Shown one piece after another: positions 1,172-61,066 of a stretch of 64,000 bases of DNA. The translations under genes were made by a program, and so were the position numbers. Every line of letters begins with the position of its first letter. Positions within the stretch are counted from its first letter, which is position 1. This DNA is from Mucilaginibacter aquariorum (GTDB lineage: Bacteria > Bacteroidota > Bacteroidia > Sphingobacteriales > Sphingobacteriaceae): the NCBI RefSeq assembly GCF_024498135.1, contig NZ_JANHOH010000001.1, positions 1,550,001 through 1,614,000 on the forward strand. The letters run 5' to 3'. The notes beneath the pieces were generated by a model. The model had not been told where the DNA came from, ran no database searches, and saw only the letters and a list, made by a program, of their open reading frames with translations.

Positions 1172-1184
1172 TCGGTACTACCGA
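1172..1184 (+). promoter_or_regulatory. Operator-like dyad TCGGTA-C-TACCGA
   Basis: A perfect 13-base inverted repeat is centred at 1178. The TTTGC of a -7-like box starts exactly 43 nt downstream (1221-1225). The same core, at the same distance from a TTTGC box, stands before the excisionase-like gene at 60740-60997. The position near -50 suits an activator site. The binding protein is unknown. Confidence 0.6.
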
Positions 1185-1225
1185 AAAGCTACAGAAATCC
1201 CCCCGATTTACTCCACCACCTTTGC

Positions 1226-1440
1226 ATCAACGAAACAAAAAAAGGCATTAGCCTGAACAATTCTTTGACATGGTGGAATGAAGCATTATCCTGCGATAAA
1301 CAGGAAATTTTGCGAAGCTGAGATGATATCAACATAGCGAACGCGCATTGGCAGGCGAGAGCCCGTATTGTAGAATACGACGTGAGTAATTCCGAAACTG
1401 AATAGATAAAACCTAAAGGGGCCGCGTGCCCCTTTTTTTT
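1226..1440 (+). ncRNA. Candidate small RNA or attenuated leader between rteC and the primase gene
   Basis: A -7-like box (CACCTTTGC, ending at 1225) starts a unit of about 210 nt that ends in a strong intrinsic terminator at 1415-1440, just before the primase gene. Inside is a perfect hairpin CGTATT-GTAG-AATACG at 1364-1379. The only open frame over its 5' part (1103-1321) starts inside rteC and looks unlike a protein. CTnDOT encodes a small RNA (RteR) that lowers transfer gene expression. Position suggests an analogous RNA or a transcription attenuator, but no sequence identity to RteR is claimed. Confidence 0.45.
1415..1440 (+). terminator. Intrinsic terminator before the primase gene
   Basis: AAAGGGGC, loop CGCGT, GCCCCTTT form a perfect 8-bp stem that runs into an eight-T tract. 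It ends 13 nt before the primase start, so it ends the small RNA unit or attenuates transcription into the mobilisation genes. Confidence 0.85.
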
Positions 1441-1453
1441 ATGCCCCAGATTT

Positions 1454-2365
1454 ATGAACGATTACAAGATCAGCGCCAAAGAAATCAAAGAGCGGGTGTC
1501 CTTAGTCAACCTCCTGAGCCGGCTTGGCTACGAACCTGCAAAACGTGCCCGAAATGAACTCTTATATTTGAGCATGCTGCGCAACAGCGATTCAACGCCA
1601 TCGTTCTCTGTCAACGACAGAAAGGGCACCTGGTACGACTTCGGTGAAGGAAGGGGCGGTAATATTATTGATTTTGGCCTGCTGTACTGGCCAGGTAGAT
1701 CGTTTCAGGAAGTACTGGAAAAGATCAATGCCGTTATGGATGGTCTGCATCGCCAGCCTTCTTTAAATTATACCAGGGATTCTACACAACCCAAAGAGCC
1801 GCATTACGGCGTTCTTGACATAAAGGAATTGGGTGGAAACAGGGCGATTACTGATTATTTGGAAAGTCGCGGTGTAGGTGCCATATCTAAAGGCCGGCTA
1901 ATGGAGATTTATTATTATGTAGAAAATGAGCAAAAGCAACGGAACAACTTCTTTGCAGCGGGGTGGCAGAATGAGCAAGGTGCATGGGAAGTCAGAAACT
2001 TGACTTTCAAAGGCTGCCTGGGCCGCAAGGCAATCAGTTTCATTCCAAATTCCGAAAAGAAACTGGCTGTCTTTGAAGGCTTTGTTAACTACCTGAGCTG
2101 GTTAACAACGAACCCGTTTGCTGCAGACAGCGTACTTGTCCTGAATTCGATCTCTTTGCTACAGCAAGGGATTATTAAAGCTGAAGGTTTCAGCCATATC
2201 AGCCTTTATCTTGACAATGACATTTCCGGAAGGCAGGCGACAATCGATTTTCAGTCAGCCTTGCCATGGGCGAAAGACTGCGCCGGTATATATGCGGGAT
2301 ACAATGATTTCAACGATATGCTGGTATCCGGGCTAAACGGTGTCACACCTCACAGGAATTTGTGA
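1454..2365 (+). CDS. Toprim primase-like protein with degenerate CHC2 domain
   Basis: This 303-residue protein has the order of a DnaG-type primase fragment. Residues about 1-90 match the CHC2 fold (DSTPSFSV, then WYDFGEGRGGNIIDF), but the zinc-binding Cys and His residues are absent. Residues about 205-290 match a toprim domain, with the acidic motif in AVFEGF, the segment VLVLNS and the metal motif YLDND with GRQA. Such proteins are typical of the mobilisation region of Bacteroidetes ICEs and may prime the transferred strand or process plasmid ends. The activity is inferred. Confidence 0.75.
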   Translation: MNDYKISAKEIKERVSLVNLLSRLGYEPAKRARNELLYLSMLRNSDSTPSFSVNDRKGTWYDFGEGRGGNIIDFGLLYWPGRSFQEVLEKINAVMDGLHRQPSLNYTRDSTQPKEPHYGVLDIKELGGNRAITDYLESRGVGAISKGRLMEIYYYVENEQKQRNNFFAAGWQNEQGAWEVRNLTFKGCLGRKAISFIPNSEKKLAVFEGFVNYLSWLTTNPFAADSVLVLNSISLLQQGIIKAEGFSHISLYLDNDISGRQATIDFQSALPWAKDCAGIYAGYNDFNDMLVSGLNGVTPHRNL

Positions 2366-2457
2366 ACAAGTTATCTTTTGGTTTTTGTCTTTGCAAGATG
2401 TGCTCCTGTCCGACAAAAAATGCTTCGCTTATTTTTTGCCAGCCTGTCGCAATCTTG

Positions 2458-2521
2458 CCCTGGACGTCGCTTCGTACCTCTGCGAAAACCAGGGAATATC
2501 GTAAACTCGCAACTCGTTTAC
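2458..2521. other. Candidate origin of transfer (oriT) upstream of mobA
   Basis: Two inverted repeats lie in the non-coding gap just before mobA. One is CCCTGG...CCAGGG (2458-2463 and 2489-2494), with an inner TCGC/GCGA pair. The other is GTAAAC...GTTTAC (2501-2506 and 2516-2521). Placement directly before the relaxosome genes fits an oriT. No nick site can be assigned from sequence alone. Confidence 0.4.
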
Positions 2522-2525
2522 TCTG

Positions 2526-2933
2526 ATGAATGGTAAAGGCAGAACAGGCAGGCCGCTTAAAAACGGCCCGAAGAGAATCAAAAAGATAGATGTGCGCTTT
2601 ACGCAGGATGAATTTGACGCTATCCTGGAACTCGAAAAAACATTAGGCATTAGTAAAGCCGAGTTGGTACGCTCAAGGTTGCTGGAGAATGTAAAGACAA
2701 TGGTTATCAACGCTAAAGAATTGATAGTGCTGCTGGATAAAACAGGCGCCGAAATAGGGCGCTGTGGTAACAACATCAACCAACTCGCCAGGTATGCGAA
2801 CATCTTAAATAAACGAGACCTGCTATCCCCTGTAGTGATAGAGCGGTTTAACAATCTTTTCGAAACGTATCTTAAAAACCAGCAAGCTTTAGATAGCATT
2901 TTACGAAAAGTGATCAGGATGGCTGGTATTTAG
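2526..2933 (+). CDS. mobA: Relaxosome accessory protein, MobC-like (MobA in Bacteroidetes naming)
   Basis: This 135-residue basic protein starts with an unstructured Lys/Arg/Gly tail, followed by a ribbon-helix-helix-like segment (KKIDVRFTQDEFDAILELEK, residues about 20-40). Its C-terminal half carries the MobC motif GNNINQLARYAN. Such proteins bind oriT and help the relaxase nick. It lies upstream of mobB, with a 15-bp repeat array between them and an inverted-repeat region just before it. Confidence 0.8.
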   Translation: MNGKGRTGRPLKNGPKRIKKIDVRFTQDEFDAILELEKTLGISKAELVRSRLLENVKTMVINAKELIVLLDKTGAEIGRCGNNINQLARYANILNKRDLLSPVVIERFNNLFETYLKNQQALDSILRKVIRMAGI

Positions 2934-2941
2934 TTCCCGCT

Positions 2942-3151
2942 GAACTTGTTCGCTGAGGACTTGGACTTTTAGCACTTGATCGTTACGAATTTGCTCGTTG
3001 CGATTTCGTTCGCTGAGAACTTGTTTCGGTCGAACTTGTTTCGGTCGAACTTGTACTATTAGAACTTGTTCTATTAAAACATGTGCTTCACGAACAAGTT
3101 TTAAGCGGGCAAGCTTTGACAGAACTGGTTCGCAGTGCACAAGTTCGGTAA
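2942..3151. repeat. Tandem array of 15-bp iterons between mobA and mobB
   Basis: About fourteen consecutive 15-bp units fill the mobA-mobB gap without spacers. The consensus is near GAACTTGTTCGNTNA. Two neighbouring units at 3017-3046 are identical (GAACTTGTTTCGGTC), and several others differ only in the last six bases. Units from 3077 on are more diverged, and some show the reverse-complement core (GAACAAGTT). The array runs up to 17 bases before the relaxase ATG. It could be a relaxosome or repressor binding array, or part of oriT. Confidence 0.75.
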
Positions 3152-3167
3152 AAACAAATTCTTTGCA

Positions 3168-4466
3168 ATGATCGTCCACATCCTTCCACCAGCAAATGGC
3201 TTTCCAGCGGTTAACTATAACACAGATAAAGTTGACCGGAATAAAGGTGAGCTGATGAAGGTATGTGGTTTTGGCGCACTACAAGGTCTACAGCACATGC
3301 GGCCGGAAGATTATAAGAACCATTTGGCAATGATATCAGCGACCAAAAAACACGTTAAGCGGCCTCAATTCCATGTTGTGATCTCGGCGGAAGGCAAAAG
3401 CTATGATAAGCATCAGTTAACCGCCATCGGCGGGGAATGGCTGAAAGCAATGGGCTACGAAAAACAACCCTACCTGATTATTTTTCACAAAGACACCGAG
3501 AATAACCACGTTCACTTGGTGACCTCACGGATCGACCATAGCGGCAAGAAAATTAGTGACCGTTTTGAAAAGATCAGGGCGGTTGTTGAATTGAACCGGG
3601 TCATGGGTGTTGACGTAAAGCAGAATGCGAAAGCCGACATAGAGACCGCACTGGCATTCCGTTTTGCAACCGGGGCGCAATTCCGGATGATATTGGAAAG
3701 CAAGGGCTACGTTTTGCGGGAGCGCGATGGCCAATACCAGGTAGTCAAATTTGGAAAAGTATTAGACAGCGTGAACCGCGGTTTAGTAATGGGCCGGGTG
3801 AATCTCAAAGAAATAGATCAGCAAAGAAAAATGCAGGTCAAAGCCTTGTTTCACAAATATGCTGCAATGTATAATACCTCGCTGGAACATGTTCGTAATG
3901 GTTACCGTTCTGAGTTTTCCACCTTTCTTAAAGAAAGCTTTGGCATTGCGCTGATGTTCCATGCTTCAGGCGACAAACAACCATACGGTTACAGCATAAT
4001 AGATCATGCCGGTAGAAATGTTTTCAAGGGCAGTGAGATTATGCCCTTAAAGAATTTATTAGCAATACCGGTTGGGAAAAGACATTCAGAAATGACATCT
4101 GTACGGTACGAAGTCAACCCCGCTCAACTGAATTATTATGCAGCGCTTTTAAAAGCAGCACTTTATAATTATCCGGATTTCAGCCAGGGATTGCAGCATC
4201 AGGGTTTAGTTATTTTCAAGAGCAACTCAGGCTTCACGCTGCATGATCCCTCGTCAGGCGTTTCGATGAATACTTCCGACCTGCTAAACAAAAATGAACA
4301 CGATGTTCTCCAAAATAGCTTCAGCCAGGGACATCATGGTGATCAAGGCAATTCGAAAACTCCGTTACCACTTCCCGGCATCAGCCTGGCATCTGATGTG
4401 GATGACAACGCCATACTGGGTATGAAACGCAGGCGAAAGAAAAAAGCAAGAACCAATCTACGCTAA
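3168..4466 (+). CDS. mobB: Relaxase/mobilisation nuclease MobB
   Basis: This is a relaxase of the MobP type that nicks the element at oriT and pilots the strand. The three-part signature is present: an N-terminal VNYNTDKV with a candidate catalytic Tyr (about residue 17), FHVVIS (about residue 69), and the metal motif NNHVHLVTSRI (about residues 112-122). The protein is 432 residues from the ATG at 3168. A GTG at 3135 is in frame but lies within the iteron array, while MIVHILPP is the typical family start. Its C-terminus is basic (RRRKKKART). It sits upstream of the tra operon. Confidence 0.88.
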   Translation: MIVHILPPANGFPAVNYNTDKVDRNKGELMKVCGFGALQGLQHMRPEDYKNHLAMISATKKHVKRPQFHVVISAEGKSYDKHQLTAIGGEWLKAMGYEKQPYLIIFHKDTENNHVHLVTSRIDHSGKKISDRFEKIRAVVELNRVMGVDVKQNAKADIETALAFRFATGAQFRMILESKGYVLRERDGQYQVVKFGKVLDSVNRGLVMGRVNLKEIDQQRKMQVKALFHKYAAMYNTSLEHVRNGYRSEFSTFLKESFGIALMFHASGDKQPYGYSIIDHAGRNVFKGSEIMPLKNLLAIPVGKRHSEMTSVRYEVNPAQLNYYAALLKAALYNYPDFSQGLQHQGLVIFKSNSGFTLHDPSSGVSMNTSDLLNKNEHDVLQNSFSQGHHGDQGNSKTPLPLPGISLASDVDDNAILGMKRRRKKKARTNLR

Positions 4467-4481
4467 CACTAAATTATTTTT

Positions 4482-5111
4482 ATGGTCATTATCATAGGGA
4501 ACCAGAAAGGTGGTGCCGGAAAAAGCACGCTTACACTCTTGCTGGCTAATTACCTTACCCAAAACAAAAGCTGTAGAGTCACTGTGCTAGACATGGATTA
4601 TCAGCAGTCTATTTCGCAAAAGTTTGAGAAAGCAAAGATCCTGGAAAACACTGAACCTTACGACGTGCTGGCCTTCGCACTATCCGATTTCCCGGTTATG
4701 GCAGAAACGATCAAACATAATCCAAAGGATATCGTGCTGATAGACCTGCCCGGCAAACTGGATGACGACGGCTTGATCAAAGTCTTTAAAGCTGCACAGG
4801 TGGCGGTTTGTCCTTTTGCTTATGATGAGTTCAGTTTCGAGTCGACGGTACCGTTTGCGCTGGTGCTCAAAAAGATCAATCCTGATGTGCATATACTTTT
4901 TGTGCCCAACCGGATAAAGGCCAATGTGAAGTATGAGATCAAATCGGATGTTAACGAACAGTTGAACCAGTTAGGATTGGTAACCGCACCTATTGCCGAC
5001 CGCATCGATTTTCAGCGTACCAATACTTTTCAAACGCCGCTGGCGGTTCAGGCGCTGCTGTTGCCGGTATTCGACCGGATTTTTAAAGAATTTATCCACC
5101 CCTATCTATGA
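4482..5111 (+). CDS. traA: ParA-family ATPase, conjugal transfer protein TraA
   Basis: This 209-residue ATPase has the deviant Walker A motif KGGAGKST at residues about 9-16, VLDMDYQQS for the switch region, and VLIDLPG as Walker B. In Bacteroidetes ICEs this ParA-like protein opens the tra operon. Its role is probably element maintenance or positioning of the transfer machine. The stop overlaps the next gene by four bases, so they are co-translated. Confidence 0.85.
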   Translation: MVIIIGNQKGGAGKSTLTLLLANYLTQNKSCRVTVLDMDYQQSISQKFEKAKILENTEPYDVLAFALSDFPVMAETIKHNPKDIVLIDLPGKLDDDGLIKVFKAAQVAVCPFAYDEFSFESTVPFALVLKKINPDVHILFVPNRIKANVKYEIKSDVNEQLNQLGLVTAPIADRIDFQRTNTFQTPLAVQALLLPVFDRIFKEFIHPYL

Positions 5112-5443
5112 ACGAGATTAAAACGCTGGCCGACCAGTTACGCAGCAAAATGATAAAACCGGATACGCCGGAGAGATCAGTTAAAGCAGAAAAGAAAAAA
5201 GCAGGTAAACCCCAGGACATTCCGCAAATAGTCGAGACGCTTCGGGCATACGATGTCAGCAATCACAAAACATTGATCCATGCCCGCGTGGATGCGCAAA
5301 CTGCGCAGATGATCCATCACTTGAAAATAGCGACGGGCGTTGAGGTTACCCGCCTGATCTGCTTTTCCATCCGGCAACTTTTTGAGCAGCACCCTGAACT
5401 TAAATCAGTAATCAAAGCACACCTAGAAAATTTTGATATATGA
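5108..5443 (+). CDS. DUF3408-type conjugal transfer protein, copy 1
   Basis: This 111-residue protein has a disordered basic N-terminus and a C-terminal DUF3408-like domain (residues about 50-111, pattern ARVDAQTAQMIHHLKIATG then HPELK) that resembles a ribbon-helix-helix fold. It overlaps traA and the next gene by four bases each. The following gene is a paralogue: both share the core DNYTV/DAQTA, LK.ATG and HPEL. These fill the TraB/TraC positions of the operon. The function is not established. Confidence 0.65.
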   Translation: MNEIKTLADQLRSKMIKPDTPERSVKAEKKKAGKPQDIPQIVETLRAYDVSNHKTLIHARVDAQTAQMIHHLKIATGVEVTRLICFSIRQLFEQHPELKSVIKAHLENFDI

Positions 5444-5703
5444 ACCGGAAAATTTTTCGCGAACTGCGCGATCCTGCTTACAACGAATTGCTGGACCGCA
5501 TGAAAGCCTATGATACAGCCGACCACGATAAATTAGTGCATGTGCGGCTGGACAATTATACGGTCGTGATCCTCAACCAACTGAAACTGGCGACAGGCAT
5601 CGATATCACCAAAGTGATGGCATTTGCCGTAAGCGAACTCCTAAAAACACACCCGGAACTCCGGCTGGCCATCGACCAATTTCTTAATCAACTTAAAACA
5701 TGA
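5440..5703 (+). CDS. DUF3408-type conjugal transfer protein, copy 2
   Basis: This 87-residue paralogue of the preceding protein shares the pattern YD.ADHDKLVHVRLDNYT, NQLKLATGID and KTHPELR. It lacks the long basic N-terminal tail. The pair probably arose by tandem duplication and may form a heteromer. It overlaps the preceding and following genes by four bases each. Confidence 0.65.
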   Translation: MNRKIFRELRDPAYNELLDRMKAYDTADHDKLVHVRLDNYTVVILNQLKLATGIDITKVMAFAVSELLKTHPELRLAIDQFLNQLKT

Positions 5704-6011
5704 ACTGGACACATTTTTTACTCTGGCTGGCAGGAATTTACAGTTTGTATTACCTCATCGTATTCCTGCTTGATCTTATCGCAGGGAATCGGAAGGATTT
5801 GCCTGCCGGAACTTCACAGGAACTGACATTTTCCGAAGAGGTTACCCCTGTTCGACTAAGCCCGGAAGCGGAATCAACACCCGAACCGGAAAAACCAACA
5901 AAATCTCAAATTGCTACTGAAGTGATCGGCTCAGGCGGGGTGCCGATCACTGACTTGTTTCGGCTGGCCAAACAGGAAGCGATCATCTATACGCGCTCCG
6001 TTAGCTTTTAG
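5700..6011 (+). CDS. traD: TraD-position single-pass membrane protein
   Basis: This is a 103-residue protein with one N-terminal membrane segment (residues about 5-27, FLLWLAGIYSLYYLIVFLLDL). It continues with an acidic, Pro/Glu-rich linker and a short C-terminal helix. It lies between the DUF3408 pair and the pilin-like genes, the place of TraD in CTnDOT-type operons. The name rests on position. Its role in the channel is unknown. Confidence 0.5.
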   Translation: MNWTHFLLWLAGIYSLYYLIVFLLDLIAGNRKDLPAGTSQELTFSEEVTPVRLSPEAESTPEPEKPTKSQIATEVIGSGGVPITDLFRLAKQEAIIYTRSVSF

Positions 6012-6012
6012 C

Positions 6013-6306
6013 ATGAAGAAGCATTTTCTGATTTTTTGCTGTAGCCTGCTTGCATTGGGCGCAATGGCGCAACCCGGTATATCTGAAATGCAGCAGGCAC
6101 AGCAAAATCTTAGGTCAACTTTCTTTTCGGCGCTGGACTGTGCCCTTGCGCTTGCGGCCATATTCGGCATTATTGGTGCAGTGCGTATCTATCATAACTG
6201 GCAAATGGGACACCCGCGAATTGATGAACAAGTAGCGGCCTGGTTCTTTGCAGCCTTCTTTATGGTATTGGCAGGTGCGTTTCTGCGCGGTGTCTTCGGC
6301 CTTTAA
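6013..6306 (+). CDS. traE: DUF4134 VirB2-like pilin subunit TraE, copy 1
   Basis: This 97-residue protein has a signal peptide ending near AMAQ (residues 1-20) and two membrane helices, with the DUF4134 pattern GIIGAVRIYHNWQMG in the loop and a final helix ending in FLRGVFGL. This is the VirB2-like prepilin of Bacteroidetes conjugation systems. A second copy follows at 6391, with a terminator hairpin in between. Confidence 0.8.
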   Translation: MKKHFLIFCCSLLALGAMAQPGISEMQQAQQNLRSTFFSALDCALALAAIFGIIGAVRIYHNWQMGHPRIDEQVAAWFFAAFFMVLAGAFLRGVFGL

Positions 6307-6329
6307 ATTAATACCCCTCCATAACCCCC

Positions 6330-6362
6330 GGCGGTTCCCCATGACTGGGGGCCGCCTTTTTT
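6330..6362 (+). terminator. Terminator hairpin between the two pilin genes
   Basis: GGCGG-TT-CCCC, loop ATGACT, GGGG-G-CCGCC form a GC-rich stem followed by six Ts. It lies inside the tra operon between the two traE-like genes. Partial read-through would make the first pilin more abundant than the products downstream. Confidence 0.75.
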
Positions 6363-6390
6363 ATTCTTATTAAAATCTAATACCCCTAAA

Positions 6391-6705
6391 ATGAATTCAA
6401 AAATTAAAAAAATGTGGGCACTGGCCTCAGTGCTTTCTTTATGTATGACGGAGATCGTAAGCGCCCAAAACGGTGTTACCGGTTTGAACTCCGCTACCAC
6501 TTCCCTTAAAACCTATGTTGCCCCGGTGACCAACGTTACCCTCGTAATTGGTGGTATCGTCGGTATCGTCGGCGCTATCCGCGTGTATTCAAAATGGAAT
6601 AGCGGTGATCAGGACATCAATAAAGAGTTGATGGGATGGGGAGGATCGTGCGTCTTTCTGGTCGTATCCGCTGTTATCATCAAAGCTTTTTTTGGCCTAA
6701 CCTAA
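6391..6705 (+). CDS. traE: DUF4134 VirB2-like pilin subunit TraE, copy 2
   Basis: This 104-residue protein is a paralogue of the preceding one. It has a signal peptide to about residue 25 (IVSAQN), then two helices with the matching loop IVGAIRVYSKWNSGDQD and ending VIIKAFFGLT. The stretch TAATACCCCT precedes both the terminator and this gene. Its last base is shared with the ATG of traF, so translation is coupled. Confidence 0.8.
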   Translation: MNSKIKKMWALASVLSLCMTEIVSAQNGVTGLNSATTSLKTYVAPVTNVTLVIGGIVGIVGAIRVYSKWNSGDQDINKELMGWGGSCVFLVVSAVIIKAFFGLT

Positions 6706-7013
6706 TGGCTAAACAATTCCAGGTTTACAAGGGGCTCCAAAGGCCCCTCGTTTACCGGGGCTTTAAAGGCAAATTCATCTATTGGGGCGTAGGCACGCTA
6801 CTCGCGGGACTGGTCATCGGCGCGCTTTGCATGACCTTATTAAACATGTGGCTCGGGCTGATCGTCATGATCTGCTGTATCGGTGGTGGCCTTGTCTTTA
6901 TCGCCGCAAAACAAAAAAAGGGACTTCACATCAAATCCCGCCCAACGGGAATTTTCGTTCACCAGGTCAACATTAAAAATCTTCATCGTTATGGCCGCAA
7001 AACAAATATTTAA
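6705..7013 (+). CDS. traF: DUF4133 conjugal transfer membrane protein TraF
   Basis: This 102-residue VirB3-like protein starts MAKQFQVYKGLQRPLVYRG, the usual DUF4133 start, and has two membrane helices (residues about 25-68). An earlier in-frame start at 6636 lies inside traE and is rejected because the ATG at 6705 overlaps the traE stop. It probably anchors the VirB4 ATPase encoded next, whose start overlaps it by 23 bases. Confidence 0.8.
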   Translation: MAKQFQVYKGLQRPLVYRGFKGKFIYWGVGTLLAGLVIGALCMTLLNMWLGLIVMICCIGGGLVFIAAKQKKGLHIKSRPTGIFVHQVNIKNLHRYGRKTNI

Positions 7014-36132: not shown

Positions 36133-38610
36133 TTAAATTGGTTTGCCGTCGATGAACTCTTCGAGTAATGAATTAATTTTATCAAAATACTCCTCTGTGA
36201 TTTTTTTTCCATGAGCCATGCTGTTCCTAATTTCATCACGAAGAATTTGTGCAAATCTGATAAAATACGGTTCTTCCAATAACATTTTGCGATAGTGCTC
36301 AATTGTATATTTCCTACCTTGCGTATGGTAATATTTATTGATTTCGTCTAGCATTTGTTCGAATGGCTTGGCAATTGCTCCTCGCATTTCGTTTTCGGAA
36401 ACATTAGAATCAGCACTAAATTCATTCGAATCAAATATCTCAACGGTGTATTGAACATAACGCCGCCTTTTCTCTTTCGAAATATTTTTAATATCGGTAA
36501 GTTTATTTAAACTATCGAAAAGAGTTCTTGTCTTTTCATGGAGATCAAGACTATCCAAAATGGAAAGGTATTCGTGAGTCAGGCTTTTAGGATCAATTTT
36601 AAATGAAATGAGCGACATATGATTTAAAAATTTTGCTGGTGAAAACAGATGCCACAAAATTGGTTCATTACGATAAAATCGGCCCTTAAACGCTTTTCTA
36701 AATGCGGTAAAAGTTTTATCCCAGGTTAAGAAAAACGGTTCGTCGCTATGAAGTTTTCTATTAGATAAATGGCAAACCATCCAGGCATCATTCAAGAGTA
36801 CATTGGGAGCTTTGGGCGAATGGGTGGTTTGTCTCAAAACGCTCTCAAGCACAGTAATTGCACTTTCCCTGTTATCGGCAGGCGGTAATATTTCTACCTC
36901 GATATTATATTGATCGGTTAGCACATTCTTAAGACTTGACAAGAGAATTTGAGTAGAATCAATTTCATAAGCATCATCTTCACGTATATACAGCCAATGG
37001 TTTAGGAATTTTTCAAAGCTATCGTCATCTTCGTCCAGTTGGTTGGATTTTTTTAAAAAATTATAAAACTGGTAAAAAACATTTGTTGAAAACTCCGACT
37101 TAACAAAATCTTCATAAGGTATTAACATCAATGCTAACCTGAGTTGATGGGCTACTTCTAATAAGTAAGGCTTGGCGAATTTGAATTTAACTTGTTTATT
37201 ATCTTTGTCAAATGCAACCAACTCTTCTGCGATCTGATAAAAAGTATTTTCATAACCAGGATTTCTTAAATAACCTGTGCATAAGATATGCAAGACAATC
37301 TGTGTGTCAAGGTACACTGTTCTATGTCTCGCGCGTATATAAGCTTCAAAATTTTCAGGATTAGTTAGTTTCCCAAGAACCTTGCTAGCACTGACTCTAA
37401 CAATAAAGTCGCTATCTTCACACAATTTTAGCAGTTCTTTAAAAAATTGTTTGCCCAAATCTTCTGGCGATATTATTTGATAGATGTAGCTAATTAGATC
37501 ATCATATAGTTGATCCTCTTTAGGTATATCATTTCCATCATCGTAAGCCTCGCTGACATCAATATTAAAATTTTTTATAAAAAAATCGTACAGTTTCTCC
37601 AGCAACGCATCAAAATGAAGGATTGCTCCGTAAGACTCCAAAAGCTCTTTATAATAAAGCAAAAACAAATCTCTATTTTCAAGAAATTCATTATAGACAA
37701 CCTTGAGACGTTCAGCCTCATCTGATGTTAATATGTAATAAAGCACTTCAGACTTTATTATCTTGCGCTGCTCGCGAAGTTTTTCTAATCGTCGATCAAA
37801 AAAATTTTTTGAAAGGGTACTTCCAAAATATGCATCGCAATTACTTTTCAATTCCGTCGCAGTCGCCTTGCCTTTGCTGTACAATTCATGTAAAATAAAA
37901 GCATTTACGACCTGCGTTTTTAGTTCCGTTGCTGTGTTCCCAAAGCTAATGAAATCATAAAGAATTTTATTTTCCTCACTATTTAATTGTTCAGAAACTA
38001 TTGAATTAAACTCTTGTTTGGGAAGATTTTCCACAACTGCTACATTTTTTAGAATGGCAAAAAGCATTACCACCAAAATGTCCGTCAGATTACTATATAC
38101 TTTCGCTTCGCCCCAGCTTGGCGAATTGTGAACTTCATTGCGTACTAGATATGCATTGCAAATTTGATATAGATATTCCTTTTTATCTCGGAACGTATGT
38201 AATTTATCAGCAGCCAAATTCGGATATTGGTTTTCTCCTTGAGTAGTTAATTCTTGATTGAGTTCAATTAACTTTAGTAACGGAAGCAACGTTTTTCCAA
38301 CTACAGCAGCAGGTCTGTGACCAAGTACAACGATGGCATATTTTTTTAAAAACGGCTCGAACGAATCTGCTAAAGCTCGTAACGGCCCCATGTCACCTTT
38401 TTTATCAATGAAAGCCTCCTGCAATGCAGGGAAAATTGCTTTAGGTAAACCTTTTAAACTATTTTCTTCAACTGGATGAGCGATAAACTTAAATAGCAAC
38501 TCAATACCATTTTTTATTTGGCCGGCCGAATAATTAGGATCTCCAGTAGTTAAGATTTCCTCTACATTGTTCTTTATTTTTTCCCTTATAATTTCCCAGT
38601 CGATGTTCAT
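36133..38610 (-). CDS. Large protein with PIN-like nuclease core and HEPN-like motifs
   Basis: This 825-residue protein is unfamiliar as a whole. Residues about 430-645 look like a PIN nuclease. All four acidic positions are visible: D435 (VYLDTQ), E485 (PYLLEVAHQL), D608 (LLNDAWMV), D631 (LTWDKTF). The C-terminus has RNSMAH at 795-800, fitting the R-x4-H HEPN motif, and RNEVHNS at 157-163 is a weaker HEPN-like string. A wHTH-like segment (FFDRRLEKLREQRKII) is at about 270. It is AT-rich, alone on the minus strand between the SRAP operon and dnaE2. An RNA-targeting defence or toxin role is inferred. Confidence 0.6.
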   Translation of the reverse strand: MNIDWEIIREKIKNNVEEILTTGDPNYSAGQIKNGIELLFKFIAHPVEENSLKGLPKAIFPALQEAFIDKKGDMGPLRALADSFEPFLKKYAIVVLGHRPAAVVGKTLLPLLKLIELNQELTTQGENQYPNLAADKLHTFRDKKEYLYQICNAYLVRNEVHNSPSWGEAKVYSNLTDILVVMLFAILKNVAVVENLPKQEFNSIVSEQLNSEENKILYDFISFGNTATELKTQVVNAFILHELYSKGKATATELKSNCDAYFGSTLSKNFFDRRLEKLREQRKIIKSEVLYYILTSDEAERLKVVYNEFLENRDLFLLYYKELLESYGAILHFDALLEKLYDFFIKNFNIDVSEAYDDGNDIPKEDQLYDDLISYIYQIISPEDLGKQFFKELLKLCEDSDFIVRVSASKVLGKLTNPENFEAYIRARHRTVYLDTQIVLHILCTGYLRNPGYENTFYQIAEELVAFDKDNKQVKFKFAKPYLLEVAHQLRLALMLIPYEDFVKSEFSTNVFYQFYNFLKKSNQLDEDDDSFEKFLNHWLYIREDDAYEIDSTQILLSSLKNVLTDQYNIEVEILPPADNRESAITVLESVLRQTTHSPKAPNVLLNDAWMVCHLSNRKLHSDEPFFLTWDKTFTAFRKAFKGRFYRNEPILWHLFSPAKFLNHMSLISFKIDPKSLTHEYLSILDSLDLHEKTRTLFDSLNKLTDIKNISKEKRRRYVQYTVEIFDSNEFSADSNVSENEMRGAIAKPFEQMLDEINKYYHTQGRKYTIEHYRKMLLEEPYFIRFAQILRDEIRNSMAHGKKITEEYFDKINSLLEEFIDGKPI

Positions 38611-52534: not shown

Positions 52535-53037
52535 TTCGAATCTCTCCCTCTCCATTTCGATAAAGGTGAAGGGTTTGCCGTTATCGATCTTCAAAAACAT
52601 GCTACGCAGACCCTGCAGCCAGCACCGGTCCCTGTGCCAGAGGCACTCGCGTTAAGTAAGGAATATTTTTCATCACTACTTTCCAAAAAGCACACGGTCA
52701 TCAAACCCTGCTCATGGACCAGAAGCTCATCCGTGGTATCGGTAATTCCTATGCCGACGAGATCCTATACGACGCCGGAGTTTCCCCGTTCCCAACCGCG
52801 AAGGCCATACCCGCTCCATACATTGACCGGCTTTTTAACAGCATTAATGAAGTCCTAAAAAGCGCGATCAAACAGATCGGGGCAGCAAATGGGGACGAAC
52901 TTAAAGGAGAATTAAAAGATTTTATGAATATTCACAGCCGTACATTAAAAAAAACTTCAAAAGGCGAGGAAATCAAAACGGAGAAGATTGGCGGACGGAC
53001 CACCTACTACACTGACGAGCAACAGCTATTTCTGTAA
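52535..53037 (+). pseudogene. 3' fragment of the split fpg gene
   Basis: The text LHFDKGEGFAVIDLQK (from about 52550) matches residues about 96-111 of the intact glycosylase. After a frameshift near 52700 the frame LIRGIGNSYADEIL...RTTYYTDEQQLFL matches the helix-two-turn-helix and zincless finger. The 107-residue tail from ATG 52714 is open but lacks the catalytic N-terminus. Together with 51076-51370 it covers nearly all of the gene. Confidence 0.7.
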
Positions 53038-53084
53038 TTGATTACAGTATTTGTTTATTGCTATCCGCTTTTCTAAATTTGACG

Positions 53085-53513
53085 ATGTCATTTAATTTAG
53101 ATAGCGAAGGCTTTGAAAAGATCATCGGCATTTTAGACCGGGCTTTCCAAGTGAGTTTTGATGAAGGACTGATGGAAGATCTCGGTAAAAAATCACCGTT
53201 TTATTACAATAACATTCCTGTTGTAAGCCAAGCTAATGACAGTGATATTGGTGAAATTTTATCATCGGTTCTAAATATCTTCAGAGACGCCGTTGAAGAA
53301 AAATTTAGTTTTGTAAGCGATGAGCTTGCCGAACAATTAAATAGTACCCTGTTCGAATTATTCGAAGAAAGTTTTATCTCCAAGCCGGGCAAGTTCTCAG
53401 CATTTTATTTCGAGAATGTCGCCATATTTCCAAAAAACCGGGACGCAGGGAATTTGAATAAGTTTATCGAAGACAGTAAATTCCTGTTCCTGTTCGCTAT
53501 CCGCGGATATTAA
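53085..53513 (+). CDS. Hypothetical acidic protein
   Basis: This 142-residue acidic protein runs from the ATG at 53085 (MSFNLDSEGFEKIIGIL). It is helical, with repeated FE/DE pairs, and carries no recognised motif. A TAAATTTG box lies directly upstream at 53074, very close to the start. Its end overlaps the convergent gene by four bases. Confidence 0.5.
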   Translation: MSFNLDSEGFEKIIGILDRAFQVSFDEGLMEDLGKKSPFYYNNIPVVSQANDSDIGEILSSVLNIFRDAVEEKFSFVSDELAEQLNSTLFELFEESFISKPGKFSAFYFENVAIFPKNRDAGNLNKFIEDSKFLFLFAIRGY

Positions 53514-53965
53514 AGTCCGCTGCTTTTGGAACGTAGCCCTTTGATCGCCAATGCCGTAACCAAACCGCCAACCAGGTACCAGGCCACCGTCAGCACTTTT
53601 GTTTTATCCGTTCTCGTCACCGGCTCATCGCTCAGACCCAATGGTTCGGTCAAGGTCAGTGCTCCAATTCCGGCGGCCGCACCGATCGCCGCCCCGCGCA
53701 ACAGCAGGTATTTCTTTTTGCCCAAGCCGATCGTGCTGAAATAAAGCGCGTTACTGAGTAAGTCTCCAGCCAGTGTAGCCACAAAAAGGGCGTTGCCCGT
53801 CGGAGGGGTCAGGTTCATGGCTTCCATGCCTTTTGTCAGGGCCTCCTCACCCACCAGGTCGACACGCGGCGCTTTATGGTCAAATGCTTTTACGGTCTGG
53901 TGAATGATATTTAGGGTAACCGCCCCCGCCAGTCCTCCAATGATGTTACTGATCAATTTTTTCAT
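53510..53965 (-). CDS. Hypothetical membrane protein upstream of the ligase end
   Basis: This 151-residue protein has about four hydrophobic segments (near 5-20, 60-80, 88-108 and 125-145) with many Gly and Ala. It lies one base after the ligD stop in the same direction and is probably co-transcribed with it. No family is recognised. Confidence 0.6.
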   Translation of the reverse strand: MKKLISNIIGGLAGAVTLNIIHQTVKAFDHKAPRVDLVGEEALTKGMEAMNLTPPTGNALFVATLAGDLLSNALYFSTIGLGKKKYLLLRGAAIGAAAGIGALTLTEPLGLSDEPVTRTDKTKVLTVAWYLVGGLVTALAIKGLRSKSSGL

Positions 53966-53966
53966 T

Positions 53967-56711: not shown

Positions 56712-56714
56712 GTT

Positions 56715-56888
56715 TTATTTTTTTAGTTCACGCTTTACATCCGGCGCGGCAGTGCCTGCCGCCAATACAGCAGCTTTTACTTTATCCTGTGACACGTTGA
56801 ATTCCCTCGCCCAAAATTCGAGGGCATAGGCATCATCGATGTCAATTGTCCGTGCATCCGCGGTATTTGCTTTTATCTTTCGGTTCAT
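56715..56888 (-). CDS. DUF3606-type small protein, copy 1
   Basis: This 57-residue protein from the ATG at 56888 (MNRKIKANTADARTIDIDD) has the DUF3606 pattern DAYALEFWAREFNVSQDKVKAAV. It ends three bases before the ligD start, so the two may be co-transcribed. The function of the family is unknown. Confidence 0.65.
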   Translation of the reverse strand: MNRKIKANTADARTIDIDDAYALEFWAREFNVSQDKVKAAVLAAGTAAPDVKRELKK

Positions 56889-56912
56889 CTTATAGATAAG
56901 TAAGTTGACAAC

Positions 56913-56932
56913 AAAGCCCCTTGCGGGGCTTT
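56913..56932 (-). terminator. Hairpin between the two DUF3606 genes
   Basis: AAAGCCCC, loop TTGC, GGGGCTTT form a perfect eight-base stem. It lies between the stop of the upstream DUF3606 gene (56953) and the start of the next (56888). A clear T-run is missing, so termination may be partial. Confidence 0.5.
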
Positions 56933-56952
56933 GCATTATGGTTTCGGATGGG

Positions 56953-57135
56953 CTATTTCTTCTTCTTATCAGCAAGATATTTTTCGATAACCTTACGGTC
57001 ATTGGAGCCCGTGGCCCTCTTTGCGCCGACGAGCGCTTGTGTACTGATGCCTAACTTCTCGGCTTCGTACTTTACCTCATACTTTTCGCCGGAATTGACT
57101 TTCTTACGGTCTGTGGTCGTTCCTTTAGTTGCCAT
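56953..57135 (-). CDS. DUF3606-type small protein, copy 2
   Basis: This 60-residue protein from the ATG at 57135 (MATKGTTTDRKKVNSGEKY) has the DUF3606-like core YEVKYEAEKLGISTQALVGA and a Lys-rich tail. It is a tandem relative of the gene at 56715. A role near LigD is suggested only by position. Confidence 0.6.
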   Translation of the reverse strand: MATKGTTTDRKKVNSGEKYEVKYEAEKLGISTQALVGAKRATGSNDRKVIEKYLADKKKK

Positions 57136-57296
57136 TGTTTTGATGTTAGATTTAACTGAGTAACAACGTTTAGAAAGGATGGTTTTAACCCGCAGGTAAT
57201 GAATTCTATTAAAAGAATAATAGGGCCACAATTCGTATGATACAAGGCGGGGTTGAAGAATTGTTGATTTGCTTTTGCAAAGCTTATGATCCTGTA

Positions 57297-58517
57297 TCAA
57301 CGATTATGCAAAGCATAACCTAATGCCAGTCCTACCAATATAGCGATAATGACGGCGATCCAGTTAAGAGAAGATTTGTTTTCCAGGCCTGTTATTTGCG
57401 CCCTGTAAGTAGCCAGTTGCTCGTTAAGGATGCTTAACTTTTCCTGTTGCAGCTTTTGCGTTTCGCCAAGTTGCTGGTTGTAGTTATTGGTGATCAATGT
57501 TATTTGGTTGTTCAGGCCGGAAATTTTCTCGTTATATACTTTTTCCAGGTCGTCGTTATTCTTCTTTTTTAGTTCTTCAACGGACTGTAGTTGTTGCTTC
57601 AGGTTATCAATTTCCTTTTGATAATTAGCGGTTAACTGCTTTTTTACGGATTCGACTAATTGCGCCCTGGAATTTTGGACTTCCTCAACAGTTTGATTGT
57701 ACGTATCATTCAGGAATTGCCCAAACTCTGACGGCGTGATGAATGCCTTATCGGCAATTTTTTGTAAAAGAGTCACATCATCTTTGTGCCCGATTGCAGT
57801 AACGAACAGTGATTTTAAATAAATTACTTTTTCAGCTAATGCTGCCTTATTAAAAATTTCCAGGTTTTCTCCACCACCTCTTGAAATTACGATGATATCG
57901 GTATCCTGCTCATCCAGTTGTCCGAGCATTTGAACGATCTCTGTTTCCGAACTTAAATTGATCTTATGGAATTCAAGCTGGTAGAACGCTATCGATTCCC
58001 TGAGCTGATGTTTGATGTCATTATCGATAATGGCTGTTTTCCCAATGATGACCCCAATTTTAAAGGGTTGCTCCTGGATGATCTTTTCTTTGATCCAGCT
58101 CTGTACATCGCGGAAACCATTGGCAGCCTTCGCCTGCTGTATCTCTATACGCCTTATTTCTTCACCGGAATATTTGTTTTGTGTCTGACCGACCAGCTCT
58201 GTAACGGTTAATTGTATATCAATGCGGCTTGCATTATTTATTACCCTTCGCGTAATGAAGCCGTTGATTATAATGGTCTTGTTATGCTGCATCTCGTTCC
58301 GGATCAGTGCCGGCACGATCAGCGTTATTTGCGCGTCTGAAGATTCATCCCGCAAGCTATCATAGTAGGCACCGTTATATATGCTTCCTTTTCCTAACTG
58401 GAAAACACCCTTTAATTGTATGATCTTTTGTGTTTGTTTCAGCGAGATCGAATTATTAAACAAGTTCAATACAGCTGCAGGCGAGTAAATAACAGGTGCC
58501 GGATTTTCTAATTCCAT
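57297..58517 (-). CDS. XseA-like exonuclease VII protein with C-terminal membrane anchor
   Basis: This 406-residue protein resembles the large subunit of exonuclease VII. It has an OB-like N-terminus (about 30-110) and the catalytic block IIVISRGGGENLEIFN (about 208-223), then VTAIGHKDDVTLLQKIADKAFITPSEFG (about 239-266, in two parts). A long coiled coil follows (about 275-380). Unlike ordinary XseA it ends in a membrane helix (about 386-403, WIAVIIAILVGLALGYAL). No xseB partner is nearby. It probably degrades single-stranded DNA at the membrane; that is inference. Confidence 0.7.
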   Translation of the reverse strand: MELENPAPVIYSPAAVLNLFNNSISLKQTQKIIQLKGVFQLGKGSIYNGAYYDSLRDESSDAQITLIVPALIRNEMQHNKTIIINGFITRRVINNASRIDIQLTVTELVGQTQNKYSGEEIRRIEIQQAKAANGFRDVQSWIKEKIIQEQPFKIGVIIGKTAIIDNDIKHQLRESIAFYQLEFHKINLSSETEIVQMLGQLDEQDTDIIVISRGGGENLEIFNKAALAEKVIYLKSLFVTAIGHKDDVTLLQKIADKAFITPSEFGQFLNDTYNQTVEEVQNSRAQLVESVKKQLTANYQKEIDNLKQQLQSVEELKKKNNDDLEKVYNEKISGLNNQITLITNNYNQQLGETQKLQQEKLSILNEQLATYRAQITGLENKSSLNWIAVIIAILVGLALGYALHNR

Positions 58518-58870
58518 TGCTGTAAAATTATCAAAAATATTATTAGCAGGCTGTTAAGAATACGGAAGTACCACGGTAAACCGTGGCCCGCGCTTTCCGC
58601 TATATCTTTTTTTCAAAAAGGATGTCGCTGCAATCGCTACTTCGCCCATGCCTGCAAACAAGGTTCGTCGTTCCGCCAGGCTACACTTCTCACCACGTTT
58701 GCGAGCCGCTCAGCAAAAGCCTGCCAGCCGCATTCCCGCAGCACCGTCCGAATTGGACCGTACGCTACGCTTAACCCGGCCATTTCCACCCGCCCATCCG
58801 GCTGGAAGGCATTTGCTTTTCCGGGAGATGATGGGTAATTCAATTTACAGGCTAAATTTAAAATCTATGT
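58518..58870. other. GC-rich block without a clear gene
   Basis: This gap begins with a perfect dyad CCACGGT-AA-ACCGTGG at 58571-58586 and a CTTTTTTTCAAAAAG palindrome near 58610. No reading frame looks like a protein. The block is GC-richer than its flanks and could be a dispersed repeat or the remains of a mobile sequence. Confidence 0.35.
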
Positions 58871-58925
58871 AGCGTAAGCGATTTTTTCATGCCCAGGACT
58901 TTTCAAAACATTTTACAATTTAGCT

Positions 58926-59317
58926 GTAAATGATGCCAGAAATATCACGATAAAAACATTCAAAAATTCACGCTTGAACTTCCTGTTACCGTCTGCGATC
59001 AATTACTGCTTGATGATCATAAAAGCGATTCAAGTTTGACTATAAGCCATCATTTAAGGCATGAGCTGGAAAGGTTCCGATTGGTATTAATAGTCGCTGT
59101 GCAACGAGATTCAAATATTGGAACTAGGAAACAAATCAGAGTAGGTGCCGCACTTATCCTGGGGATTTGTGTTATCGTAATGTTTAGATTCCACATCGTG
59201 ACTACATTTCCGTCTTTCAAATGGCTGATATATATTGGTATTTCCATTCTTGGGATATACGCCAGTTATCAATTGTTAACCAAACTATTTATTCTCACAA
59301 CGCAAATCCCTAATTGA
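58926..59317 (+). pseudogene. Possible fragment of a small membrane protein
   Basis: An open frame without a good start encodes KFTLELPVTVCDQLLLDDHK, then a stretch with two membrane helices (VGAALILGICVIVMF and LIYIGISILGIYASY), ending TTQIPN. No ATG lies in frame near the start, and the family is not recognised. It may be a decayed gene or a real one with an unusual start. Confidence 0.3.
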
Positions 59318-59543
59318 GCAATTGGAATTATTAGCGATACATCAACGGATCAAAGATGAATTTACCTGTTAAGTTTTACGTAATTATCAAATTTCGATAC
59401 CTTAAATATTATCCTGACATACTTGTGCGGCAACATGCACATAATACCTTGCGCTTTTAGGATCATTAGCTTCTTAAGCTTCCGCCATTGCACTGTTGAT
59501 CCAGATTCAACTATGTATTTCTTTGTGATGATTTACGGCTTAC

Positions 59544-59681
59544 CATATAATTTATTTTTTGGAATGCAAAGGTGAAGCCAGCCCCCACGGCTGTCAAGGG
59601 TATATAAACCCCGGCAAGCCAGGGCCCTTGACAGCCGCAACGCCAGGCTTCTTTTACCTGCATTAAAAAATAAATTATATG
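59544..59681. repeat. Long inverted repeat with 57-nt arms before the gene at 59684
   Basis: The arms 59544-59600 and 59625-59681 have equal length. They share an outer 17 bases (CATATAATTTATTTTTT), an inner 13 bases (CGGCTGTCAAGGG) and a middle GAAGCC, with mismatched internal loops between. A 24-nt loop separates them. The structure ends three bases before an ATG. It could fold as a single-stranded promoter or origin during transfer. Confidence 0.65.
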
Positions 59682-59683
59682 TT

Positions 59684-60283
59684 ATGGAAAGCCTGGTATT
59701 AAATCTTCGATCAAAAAAACAAATTACAGATTACATCGCCGATAATCACCTCATTAGATATGAGAAGGACATTTTCAATGAATTGCTAATGGCTATCGAA
59801 AATAATGAGCAGCAAAATCTTGACTGGTTCCGCAGCTTCGGCGATAGTTTAAGAGCAATTGCCATGAACCTGCATGCTTACCGCAAAGGCTTGGAATTTG
59901 GGTTTACAGAAATCGCTTTTGATCAATATGGTTGGTTCAAGCGTCCGCAATGGTTAGACACAGAAGAACACGCTTTTGGTGATACCAGTCGGTACGGCAA
60001 CCACAGCACCATTACCATTGGACATGGCCCGAATGGCCTTTGGACTTATGCAATGAGTTATAGTTTTGGTTGCGCAGGCGGCGGTTACGCGCTTTCTGTA
60101 TATGATAAAAAATACAATACTCGTGACGAAACGTTTACCGCCGCGCTAGATGATTTAAAAATAAAAATGACATCGCGCATCGGTAGTACTGATACTACTA
60201 ATGATAAACAGCCGATCATACTGGCAACGCTTCGTGATATTGAAAAAGCGAAGATTGCTATGGTGCAGCTAACACTCTTTTAG
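59684..60283 (+). CDS. ICE-type hypothetical protein behind a long hairpin
   Basis: This 199-residue protein has DWFRSFGDSLRAIAMNLHAYR, then a Gly-rich core (GHGPNGLWTYAMSYSFGCAGGGYALSVY, read in two parts) that looks like a small beta fold. Similar proteins occur on Bacteroidetes mobile elements, without a known role. Its start follows a 138-nt inverted repeat, which may control it during conjugation. Confidence 0.55.
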   Translation: MESLVLNLRSKKQITDYIADNHLIRYEKDIFNELLMAIENNEQQNLDWFRSFGDSLRAIAMNLHAYRKGLEFGFTEIAFDQYGWFKRPQWLDTEEHAFGDTSRYGNHSTITIGHGPNGLWTYAMSYSFGCAGGGYALSVYDKKYNTRDETFTAALDDLKIKMTSRIGSTDTTNDKQPIILATLRDIEKAKIAMVQLTLF

Positions 60284-60429
60284 CAGAGTTTGCGTAATGA
60301 ATATTAAATTATATCGTAACCATTTGACGACGATATATCAACGAAAATGTACCCATGCCCTACTTTAGCATTCGTTAAAGTCAGGCGATATTTTATGGTT
60401 AGCTGCTCTTTGCTTTTACTATATTCTAA

Positions 60430-60735
60430 TCACTGGGTTTTAAATTTGGACAGGTTCAAAAACCTAACCTGGGTTCCAATAAACCTATCATAGGACGGGC
60501 TATATTCGATGAGCCCCCATTCTGATATTTCACGTATGCATTTATGATAGGTCGCCATTGATCGGATTTTTGCCATATCCATAATTGTACTTCTCGATAT
60601 CTTAAAAGGTGTGTGATAATTATCGTTCCTCCAGCTACAAAACAAAGCAAGGTAAATGCTAATGTGCGTTGCCTTAAGCTTTTTATTACTTTTGCCTGCC
60701 TGAATAAAAAAGATAAGTGTATTTACTTCCTTCAC
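60430..60735 (-). CDS. Winged-helix-like ICE protein
   Basis: This 101-residue basic protein has ATHISIYLALFCSWR, the segment FKISRSTIMDMAKIRSMATYHKCIREISEWGLIEYSP (in two parts) typical of a replication-initiator or GntR-like winged helix. It lies four bases after the excisionase-like gene, in the same operon. It probably binds DNA. The target is unknown. Confidence 0.6.
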   Translation of the reverse strand: MKEVNTLIFFIQAGKSNKKLKATHISIYLALFCSWRNDNYHTPFKISRSTIMDMAKIRSMATYHKCIREISEWGLIEYSPSYDRFIGTQVRFLNLSKFKTQ

Positions 60736-60739
60736 GATT

Positions 60740-60997
60740 CTAACTGCCCTCCAATAATCGCCTGACTTCGGTTGCCCTGTAATAATGGATACTGCCTACC
60801 TTTGTAGAGCGTAATTTGCCGCTTATACGCAGCCCTTGAAGTGTGTTTGGAGAAATGCTGAGCATTTGCCGGACCTGCCTGGTTCGTAACCATTCATTGT
60901 TGAGGTTATCCGGCTTTTGAATAAGTAATTTAATTTCTTTAAGTAAGTCTTCTTTAAATAATTGAAGATCCTCTTTAGTTATGATTTCTGCTGACAT
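60740..60997 (-). CDS. Excisionase-like helix-turn-helix protein
   Basis: This 85-residue protein ends in a MerR/excisionase-type HTH (EWLRTRQVRQMLSISPNTLQ, then GSIHYYRATEVRRLL). Such proteins act with integrase to excise ICEs. The promoter region has a CGGTA-TACCG dyad 53 bases upstream of the start and a TTTGC box 43 nt from the dyad centre, the same geometry as at 1178-1221. It is followed by the winged-helix gene. Confidence 0.75.
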   Translation of the reverse strand: MSAEIITKEDLQLFKEDLLKEIKLLIQKPDNLNNEWLRTRQVRQMLSISPNTLQGLRISGKLRSTKVGSIHYYRATEVRRLLEGS

Positions 60998-61049
60998 AGG
61001 ATTATTTAAAGCAAATAACCTGTGAAACTATCGGATTACTTGACAAGCA

Positions 61050-61066
61050 TTTCGGTAGTACCGAAA
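61050..61066 (-). promoter_or_regulatory. Operator-like dyad before the excisionase-like gene
   Basis: TTTCGGTA-G-TACCGAAA is a perfect 17-base dyad. On the minus strand a TTTGC box starts 43 nt from its centre (61015-61011). A related partial copy, CCGGTAATACC, lies at 61127-61137. The same core is found at 1172-1184. Confidence 0.65.

Follow-up and report, generated by a model that had tools for sequence, protein, structure and literature searches.

The 64,000-nucleotide stretch of Mucilaginibacter aquariorum DNA analyzed here (RefSeq assembly GCF_024498135.1, contig NZ_JANHOH010000001.1, positions 1,550,001 to 1,614,000; hereafter, the window) raises the question of why two short inverted repeats near its ends stand at exactly the same distance before a promoter-like box. 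One of them follows a gene of the rteC family and precedes a predicted structured RNA, a primase-like gene, and mobilization (mob) genes; the other precedes an excisionase-like helix-turn-helix (HTH) gene. Our answer, reached by comparing related sequences, is that the RteC protein of an integrative and conjugative element (ICE) quite probably binds both sites and jointly turns on the excisionase-like gene and the predicted RNA that precedes the primase and mob genes.

Two operator-promoter sites with the same spacing

The initial annotation had placed matched operator-promoter sequences at both ends of the presumed element, and both dyads are present where it had put them (Table 1). The exact dyads, TCGGTA-C-TACCGA and TTTCGGTA-G-TACCGAAA, are two of seven window matches with up to 2 mismatches (1.33 expected), and the box TTTGC, starting at 1221 on the plus strand and at 61015 on the minus strand, lies in both cases 43 nt from the center of its own dyad. 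The geometry at the two ends is thus the same, as had been stated, and the rteC and excisionase-like genes named beside the sites are borne out by their Pfam matches; the box itself reads TTTGC at both window sites, but in related sites TTTG alone is invariant and the following base varies. In the 5.97-Mb genome, the exact 13-mer occurs three times, at the two window sites and at one other place. This third copy forms a stem with 14-bp arms beside a tRNA-like sequence (judged by eye) and is probably a terminator.

Recurrence of the cassette in the genus and the phylum

In a search of 301 genomes of the family, TCGGTANTACCGA followed by TTTG approximately 26 to 56 nt from its center was found 85 times in 49 genomes. 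Twenty-one of these matches stand at an offset of 43, and no other offset is represented more than four times. All 21 belong to the genus of the window (13 genomes), where they make up 21 of 48 matches versus 0 of 37 in other genera. The binomial probability of this excess (5e-19) serves as a guide only, since palindromes may count on both strands, one dyad may meet two TTTG sequences, and some sites are near copies (the pairs G062/G216 and G082/G237). A looser pattern, GGGTMNKACCC followed by TTTG, matched at least 66 of 69 genomes, mostly by chance, and was discarded.

Nineteen of the 21 sites were aligned after one from each near-copy pair had been removed by hand, the dyad itself being fixed by the search. 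Beyond the dyad, C at +11 and T at +12 never vary, and A occupies +17 in 18 of the 19 sites and +40 likewise in 18, the exception at +40 being the right-hand site of the window (T instead of A). The box reads AnnTTTG, which agrees with the -7 consensus TAnnTTTG given for Bacteroidetes in the accessible text of PMC7366714; no TTTG-type -33 box is conserved in the 19 aligned sites.

The same offset stands out in loci collected in other ways. Among 61 loci bearing the structured RNA, picked by RNA similarity alone, 14 have a dyad with 5 or more of 6 pairs centered 43 nt before TTTG, compared with at most 2 at other offsets from 34 to 53; the counts become 15 versus at most 3 when TTCG is also allowed, and 10 versus 4 at the next offset when perfect arms of at least 6 are demanded. 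Upstream of excisionase-like genes, a dyad stands at 43 in 13 of 46 regions (the window and part of the similarity matches listed) and at any other offset from 36 to 50 in at most 2, although 1 of the 13 is the window itself and 4 (L194, L196, L198, and L201) were fetched for the known operator. In a phylum sample of 296 genomes, 34 of them with RteC, 29 loci were scanned, one per genome (L268, L265, and L278 come from the family of the window). In the stretch that follows rteC, read on the same strand as that gene, 12 of the 29 loci hold a dyad with 6 or more of 7 pairs at 43, and no other offset from 30 to 56 is represented more than twice. Behind 8 of these 12 promoters lies a gene with a plain likeness to the excisionase of the window, and behind one more an HTH-like gene (by eye); the half-sites there include CACAA/TTGTG, CCCAA/TTGGG, and CCGTA/TACGG. 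The alignment of promoters from related rteC elements, which had been proposed as a check, yields a 43-nt cassette that recurs in genus and phylum; because its half-sites differ downstream of rteC across the phylum, the arrangement (here, the chassis) is taken to be old, with half-sites that drift.

The right half-site is repeated directly 11 bp downstream; in L121 and L194 the repeat is a perfect TACCGAA, and at the other sites it is degenerate. Over 16 hand-picked sites of the 21 in the genus, the mean 8-mer identity at a shift of 11 is 4.44 of 8, versus 1.06 to 2.31 at other shifts from 8 to 16; over the 12 phylum sites, it is 4.67 of 8 at shift 11 versus 1.25 to 2.42 at the others. As read from the aligned sequences, the cassette is an inverted pair of half-sites, a direct third half-site 11 bp on, and TTTG 43 nt from the dyad center. 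Given the excess at this offset, the 43-nt spacing is not due to chance. The window does hold only two exact sites, which might owe their likeness to chance or to a recent duplication of no regulatory meaning; the exact recurrence of the spacing in other elements, also with different half-sites at paired promoters, makes this extremely improbable.

Half-sites of paired promoters change in concert

Gene names in relatives were assigned by eye or by similarity to window proteins, except where Pfam is cited. Within the genus, the operator precedes the structured RNA (the window, L109, L110, L112, L121, L123, L126, L142, and others), excisionase-like HTH genes (the window, L164, L165, L194, L196, L198, and L201), or another HTH-like gene (L011 and L199). 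The gene behind the same operator in G082 is 61% identical to the excisionase-like gene of the window.

Six contigs carry promoters that can be paired, one element per pair being assumed from the distance, and in each of the six, the half-site type is the same at both promoters, including two types other than TCGGTA. CGGTA is found at both promoters in three genomes: that of the window (G000), with 59.9 kb between them; G082, with 55.6 kb; and G270, with 45.5 kb, where a different HTH gene lies behind the second promoter. Two pairs are of the GGGT type, AAGGGTC/GACCCTT with GAGGGTG/CACCCC in G228 (18 kb) and AAGGGTC/GACCCC with AGGGCA/GACCCT in G162 (26 kb); in the excisionase regions of both, the dyads escaped a scan for longer arms and came to light once imperfect dyads were allowed, that of G162 having only 4 of 6 pairs and a 43-nt spacing counted by hand. 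GGTTT stands at both promoters in G219 (106 kb), as AAGGTTT/AAACCT with AAGGTTT/AACCCTT; on its RNA side the box is TTCG, and of the 61 RNAs only this one has no primase or mob genes downstream. Three further pairs lie more than 600 kb apart and probably belong to different elements; one matches (G192) and two differ (the second site of G219, and G225). Of the 15 RNA-side operators (TTCG allowed), nine others had no partner found or fetched on the same contig. Because the half-site type changes in concert, one regulator would read both promoters, and we judge this to be the strongest evidence for it. Coactivation by one regulator, as first suggested for the window alone, is well supported by comparison: the two-promoter layout, the 43-nt spacing, and the matched half-site types recur in related elements.

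Operators at the same offset also occur before other genes. On contigs C12 and C15 of G273 (43.7 and 28.3 kb; L195 and L197), the operator precedes a mobA-like gene (by eye), which suggests mobilizable elements that answer to the regulator of an ICE. In L200 (contig C21 of G237, a genome without an RteC match), it precedes a small open reading frame (ORF) followed by a serine-recombinase-like frame (by eye), and in L017, L021, L262, and L268, a cassette with a spacing of 42 or 43 nt downstream of rteC precedes a small membrane-protein-like ORF rather than an excisionase (by eye).

RteC as the probable reader of both operators

In a tree of 50 RteC proteins, 21 could be labeled with an operator type (13 CGGTA, 4 GGGTA, and 4 of a wide type centered 36.5 nt before the box) and 29 were unlabeled. 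The labels cluster on the tree, requiring 3 changes compared with a shuffled mean of 7.5, and none of 200 shuffles was as low. The operator lies approximately 1.4 kb from rteC in L008, L036, and L037. An RteC match of at least 200 bits, a line chosen after the list had been viewed, is present in 16 of 69 genomes of the genus, and the exact operator at 43 occurs in 10 of these 16 versus 3 of the 53 others (Fisher 5e-6). The three named RteC relatives found are all from Mucilaginibacter, and the genome of the window encodes a second, distant RteC (G000:C1:2339493-2340128, minus strand).

One regulator, RteC, most likely reads both dyads. The initial annotation had left the choice between RteC and an RteB-like regulator; the clustering of operator types on the RteC tree favors the former, and for an RteB-like protein no search was made. 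That the dyads are read by another protein, whether the excisionase or a response regulator like RteB, or by a repressor, is unlikely. G237 has two operators without any RteC match, and RteB activates rteC in CTnDOT (PMC1976400, in the text available); against this stand the clustering on the RteC tree, the recurrence of the cassette with drifting half-sites downstream of rteC across the phylum, and the placement of the dyad upstream of the TTTG box, where an activator would be expected.

A conserved, predicted structured RNA behind the left-hand promoter

Behind rteC, the initial annotation had foreseen a leader or small RNA, and a conserved predicted structure of 134 nt is indeed found there. 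A DNA search with window positions 1225 to 1445 gave matches in 79 of 301 family genomes and in 7 of 25 genera, and the core is present in all 61 loci examined (60 fetched from the listed matches, and the window). For the 51 sequences less than 95% alike, RNAalifold returned a consensus of 29 pairs, 23 of them with changes on both sides. With three pairs added by hand at one helix end (32 in total), 93.4% of cells are paired and 25 of the 32 pairs show compensatory changes on both sides; none of 500 shuffles reaches any of five measures, and the score collapses when the fold is slid by one column. Two of the three added pairs fail in 31 of the 51 sequences. A covariance model found the RNA in 6 of 395 phylum genomes, all from the family of the window, with strict filters that lose weak matches. 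Rfam gave no family at threshold, and six loci searched with E up to 1 yielded one weak match (E 0.97, below the gathering score and on the opposite strand); plasmid records gave no match to the RNA.

On the plus strand, G-U cells outnumber A-C cells (117 versus 15, the invariant U-G pair being left out), and this strand is therefore taken as the one that folds. The counts also bear on the idea that the conserved segment acts as single-stranded DNA, as an origin of transfer (oriT) or a single-strand initiation origin, which we regard as very unlikely. The segment does precede primase and mob genes, and the same fold is possible in single-stranded DNA, where a G-T wobble could also form. Against it, besides the G-U excess, speak the position of the segment behind a predicted activated promoter and the presence of inverted repeats that would suit an oriT directly upstream of mobA (2393 to 2494; seen in the window, without comparison across elements).

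A primase gene follows the RNA on the same strand within 7 kb in 55 of the 61 loci, and primase or mob genes do so in 60 (all but L106); rteC lies within 3.5 kb upstream in 25. After the RNA, a terminator is found within 260 nt in 27 of the 61 loci, and 23 have a CCGGCAG-type hairpin, with both in one locus. This hairpin, CCGGCAG ... CTGCCGG, is seen in L109, L110, L112, L114, and others, 22 of the 23 being loci where no terminator was found. When the 6.8 kb beyond the RNA were scanned more strictly, 26 terminators were found in the sense direction versus 1 antisense. In the window, approximately 210 nt separate the predicted transcript start from the terminator.

Proposed mechanism and the role of the RNA

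We propose that the RteC-family protein of the element would bind both dyads and that binding would activate: the dyad would be centered near -52 and the third half-site would immediately precede the -33 region, much as for a class II activator. The predicted transcript starts are near 1230 and 61005, and one operon would comprise the primase and mob genes. Excision and preparation for transfer would be switched on together, and the RNA would act in cis as a leader that allows polymerase through the terminator at 1415 to 1440.

The last step, a cis-acting read-through leader resembling canT of Tn916, is favored here with lower confidence. It draws on the strict position of the RNA before primase or mob genes and on the primase ATG, which stands 13 nt past the U tract of the hairpin; this leaves hardly any room for a promoter, so that read-through would be needed, unless the true primase start lies further in. 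A terminator within 260 nt in only 27 of 61 loci speaks against a leader of this kind. canT is an RNA at the head of the conjugation genes of an ICE, with a terminator downstream, and is thought to let polymerase pass that terminator (PMC11658703, in the part available). Similar to canT, which like put and EAR is a cis-acting antiterminator RNA, the RNA of the window lies upstream of and codirectional with conjugation genes and has a terminator behind it; however, canT belongs to a different phylum, its active pieces of 341 to 452 nt were tested by experiment in that same source, and the likeness drawn here is one of description only.

A serious rival, though a doubtful one, is a trans-acting small RNA like RteR of CTnDOT, which would end at 1415 to 1440 and tune tra expression, the activation by RteC then being a feedback arm. 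RteR adjoins rteC in CTnDOT, directly downstream of it. It too is the RNA of an ICE in the same phylum, and the RNA of the window occupies the corresponding place, directly downstream of rteC; RteR has 90 nt (PMC7366714, as excerpted), compared with the 134-nt conserved core found here. While rteC within 3.5 kb and the terminators in 27 loci would fit such an RNA, a trans-acting molecule would not need to lie upstream of and codirectional with primase or mob genes, as 60 of the 61 copies do. Moreover, no terminator was found within 260 nt in 34 of the 61 loci, 22 of which have the conserved hairpin instead, and the annotated primase start of the window could then hardly be expressed. One target probe, complementary to the invariant 5' segment, matched the window five times, the RNA itself included, which is no more than the 5.42 expected by chance.

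Observations that weigh against the proposal

Several observations run counter to control of both promoters by RteC through the 43-nt cassette. No dyad of at least 5 of 6 pairs stands 43 nt before TTTG in 47 of the 61 RNA loci, and a second geometry exists before the RNA, with wide dyads centered 36.5 nt before TTTG (L107, L128, L132, L134, L137, and L161) and TTTG 22 nt before the RNA core. The peak becomes weaker when the 29 phylum loci are scanned on each flank and on either strand (14 at 43, 9 at 47, and 8 at 37). A gapped inverted-repeat scan of the RNA loci, itself noisy, ranks 43 second (11 loci) to 46.5 (13 loci), the latter class consisting mostly of one recurrent hairpin type 65 to 345 nt before the RNA; the 36.5-nt geometry came out of the same scan. 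Several sites are near copies of one another. The exact operator at 43 also occurs without a close RteC (G036 and G095) or without any RteC match (G237), and the resident RteC of G036 adjoins an operator of another type (L268); a borrowed regulator or decay of the element could explain these three genomes. Operator and rteC are often neighbors, so their clustering on the tree could in part reflect shared descent. A model of RteC (predicted local distance difference test [pLDDT], 83.6; predicted template modeling score [pTM], 0.61) had no PDB fold match at E 0.001, and therefore its role as a DNA binder rests on the CTnDOT literature. Finally, when the RNA of the window is folded by itself, the result does not stand out clearly from shuffled sequences (z, -1.56; 16 of 200 gave a value as low).

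Limits of the element and neighboring features

The two sites, as the sequence comparisons indicate, mark one regulon and probably one element. That everything between them belongs to one element, as the initial annotation had supposed, is plausible, although the window has no tyrosine-recombinase match: of the 14 matches to PF00589 in the genome, none falls in the window, and the nearest such genes lie approximately 18 kb to the right of the excisionase gene and approximately 29 kb to the left of rteC. In G082, approximately 50 bp separate the end of an integrase gene from the excisionase operator that follows. Between the two promoters of the window lie a mob-tra module and DNA-repair cargo (Table 1 lists the features around both promoters). 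The cargo at 36133 to 56711 encodes Ku, LigD, a DNA polymerase III alpha-like protein, an IMS (ImpB/MucB/SamB) family protein, and a Fapy-DNA glycosylase.

A strong terminator-like hairpin lies in the mob-tra module at 6330 to 6356 (plus strand), between the ORFs at 6013 to 6306 and 6391 to 6705. The only Rfam match in a scan of the whole window is Flavo-1 at 58582 to 58645 (minus strand; 45.1 bits, above the gathering score), near the excisionase gene. The second small ORF beside that gene had no match in a Pfam search. A sigma-70-type promoter scan gave 15 matches compared with 26.5 in shuffles and was not used because the Bacteroidota consensus differs; one of its matches sits within the RNA core (1265 to 1292).

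Table 1. Features around the left-hand and right-hand promoters, in window coordinates
Feature	Position	Strand	Basis or remark
rteC-family regulator gene, with an ATG at 277	229..1110	+	PF09357, E 1.2e-53; predicted reader of both operators
Left operator dyad TCGGTA-C-TACCGA	1172..1184, center 1178	+	Sequence
Third direct half-site CTACAGAA, 11 bp after CTACCGAA	1189..1196	+	Sequence; shift-11 peak over 16 and 12 sites
-7-type box AnnTTTG, TTTG 43 nt from dyad center	1218..1224	+	Predicted transcript start near 1230
Conserved predicted structured RNA core, 134 nt, 32 pairs	1262..1395	+	Family alignment and covariation
Intrinsic-terminator-like hairpin and U tract, between RNA and primase gene	1415..1440	+	Sequence, terminator scan
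Primase-like gene; CHC2 zinc ribbon; Toprim-like match below its cutoff	1454..2365	+	Domain search
mobA/NikA-like relaxosome gene	2526..2933	+	PF21983, 6.7e-11
MobB-like relaxase gene	3135..4466	+	PF03432, 1.7e-18; NF041325, 2.4e-26, below its cutoff
Second small ORF, possibly in the same operon as the excisionase-like gene	60430..60735	-	ORF
Excisionase-like HTH_17 gene	60740..60997	-	PF12728, 1.2e-07
TTATTTG, TTTG starting at 61015, 43 nt from center; without A at +40	61012..61018	-	Sequence
Weak third half-site CTTGTCAA, 11 bp downstream	61040..61047	-	Sequence
Right operator dyad TTTCGGTA-C-TACCGAAA (minus-strand reading)	61050..61066, center 61058	-	Sequence

Relation to known systems and significance

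In CTnDOT, an inverted repeat lies upstream of the xis2c promoter. RteC activates the excision functions of that element, including Xis2c, according to the available parts of PMC5729914 and PMC1976400. The window resembles the xis2c system of Bacteroides in having an RteC-family regulator and an excisionase-like HTH gene behind an inverted repeat, here 43 nt before TTTG; unlike it, the window repeats the cassette in front of a predicted structured RNA that precedes primase and mob genes. Putative ICEs of Mucilaginibacter with CTnDOT-like conjugation modules and an RteC-like gene have been reported (PMC6316836), and the accessible text of that report names the RteC-like gene but describes no operators or RNA for these islands. 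A literature search, with limited coverage of subscription journals, brought up no publication dealing with either the promoters or the RNA described here. What the present analysis adds is the spacing of 43 nt, the third half-site, and the agreement in half-site type between paired promoters.

As a speculative extension, the RteC elements of Bacteroidota may use private operator dialects within a fixed chassis of three half-sites and 43 nt, copied in Sphingobacteriaceae before a new class of processive-antiterminator RNA, so that one word would license both excision and read-through into the mob genes, and satellite elements would ride along by carrying the same word.

Most of what is known of excision control by RteC comes from CTnDOT of gut Bacteroides. 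A fixed chassis with changing half-sites would provide a rule for finding RteC targets in Bacteroidota genomes, and it predicts which element's regulator acts on which neighbor, for instance, at the operators before mobA-like genes in G273. The apparent tie between excision and a structured RNA without a matching Rfam family bears on how these elements may time excision and mobilization jointly.

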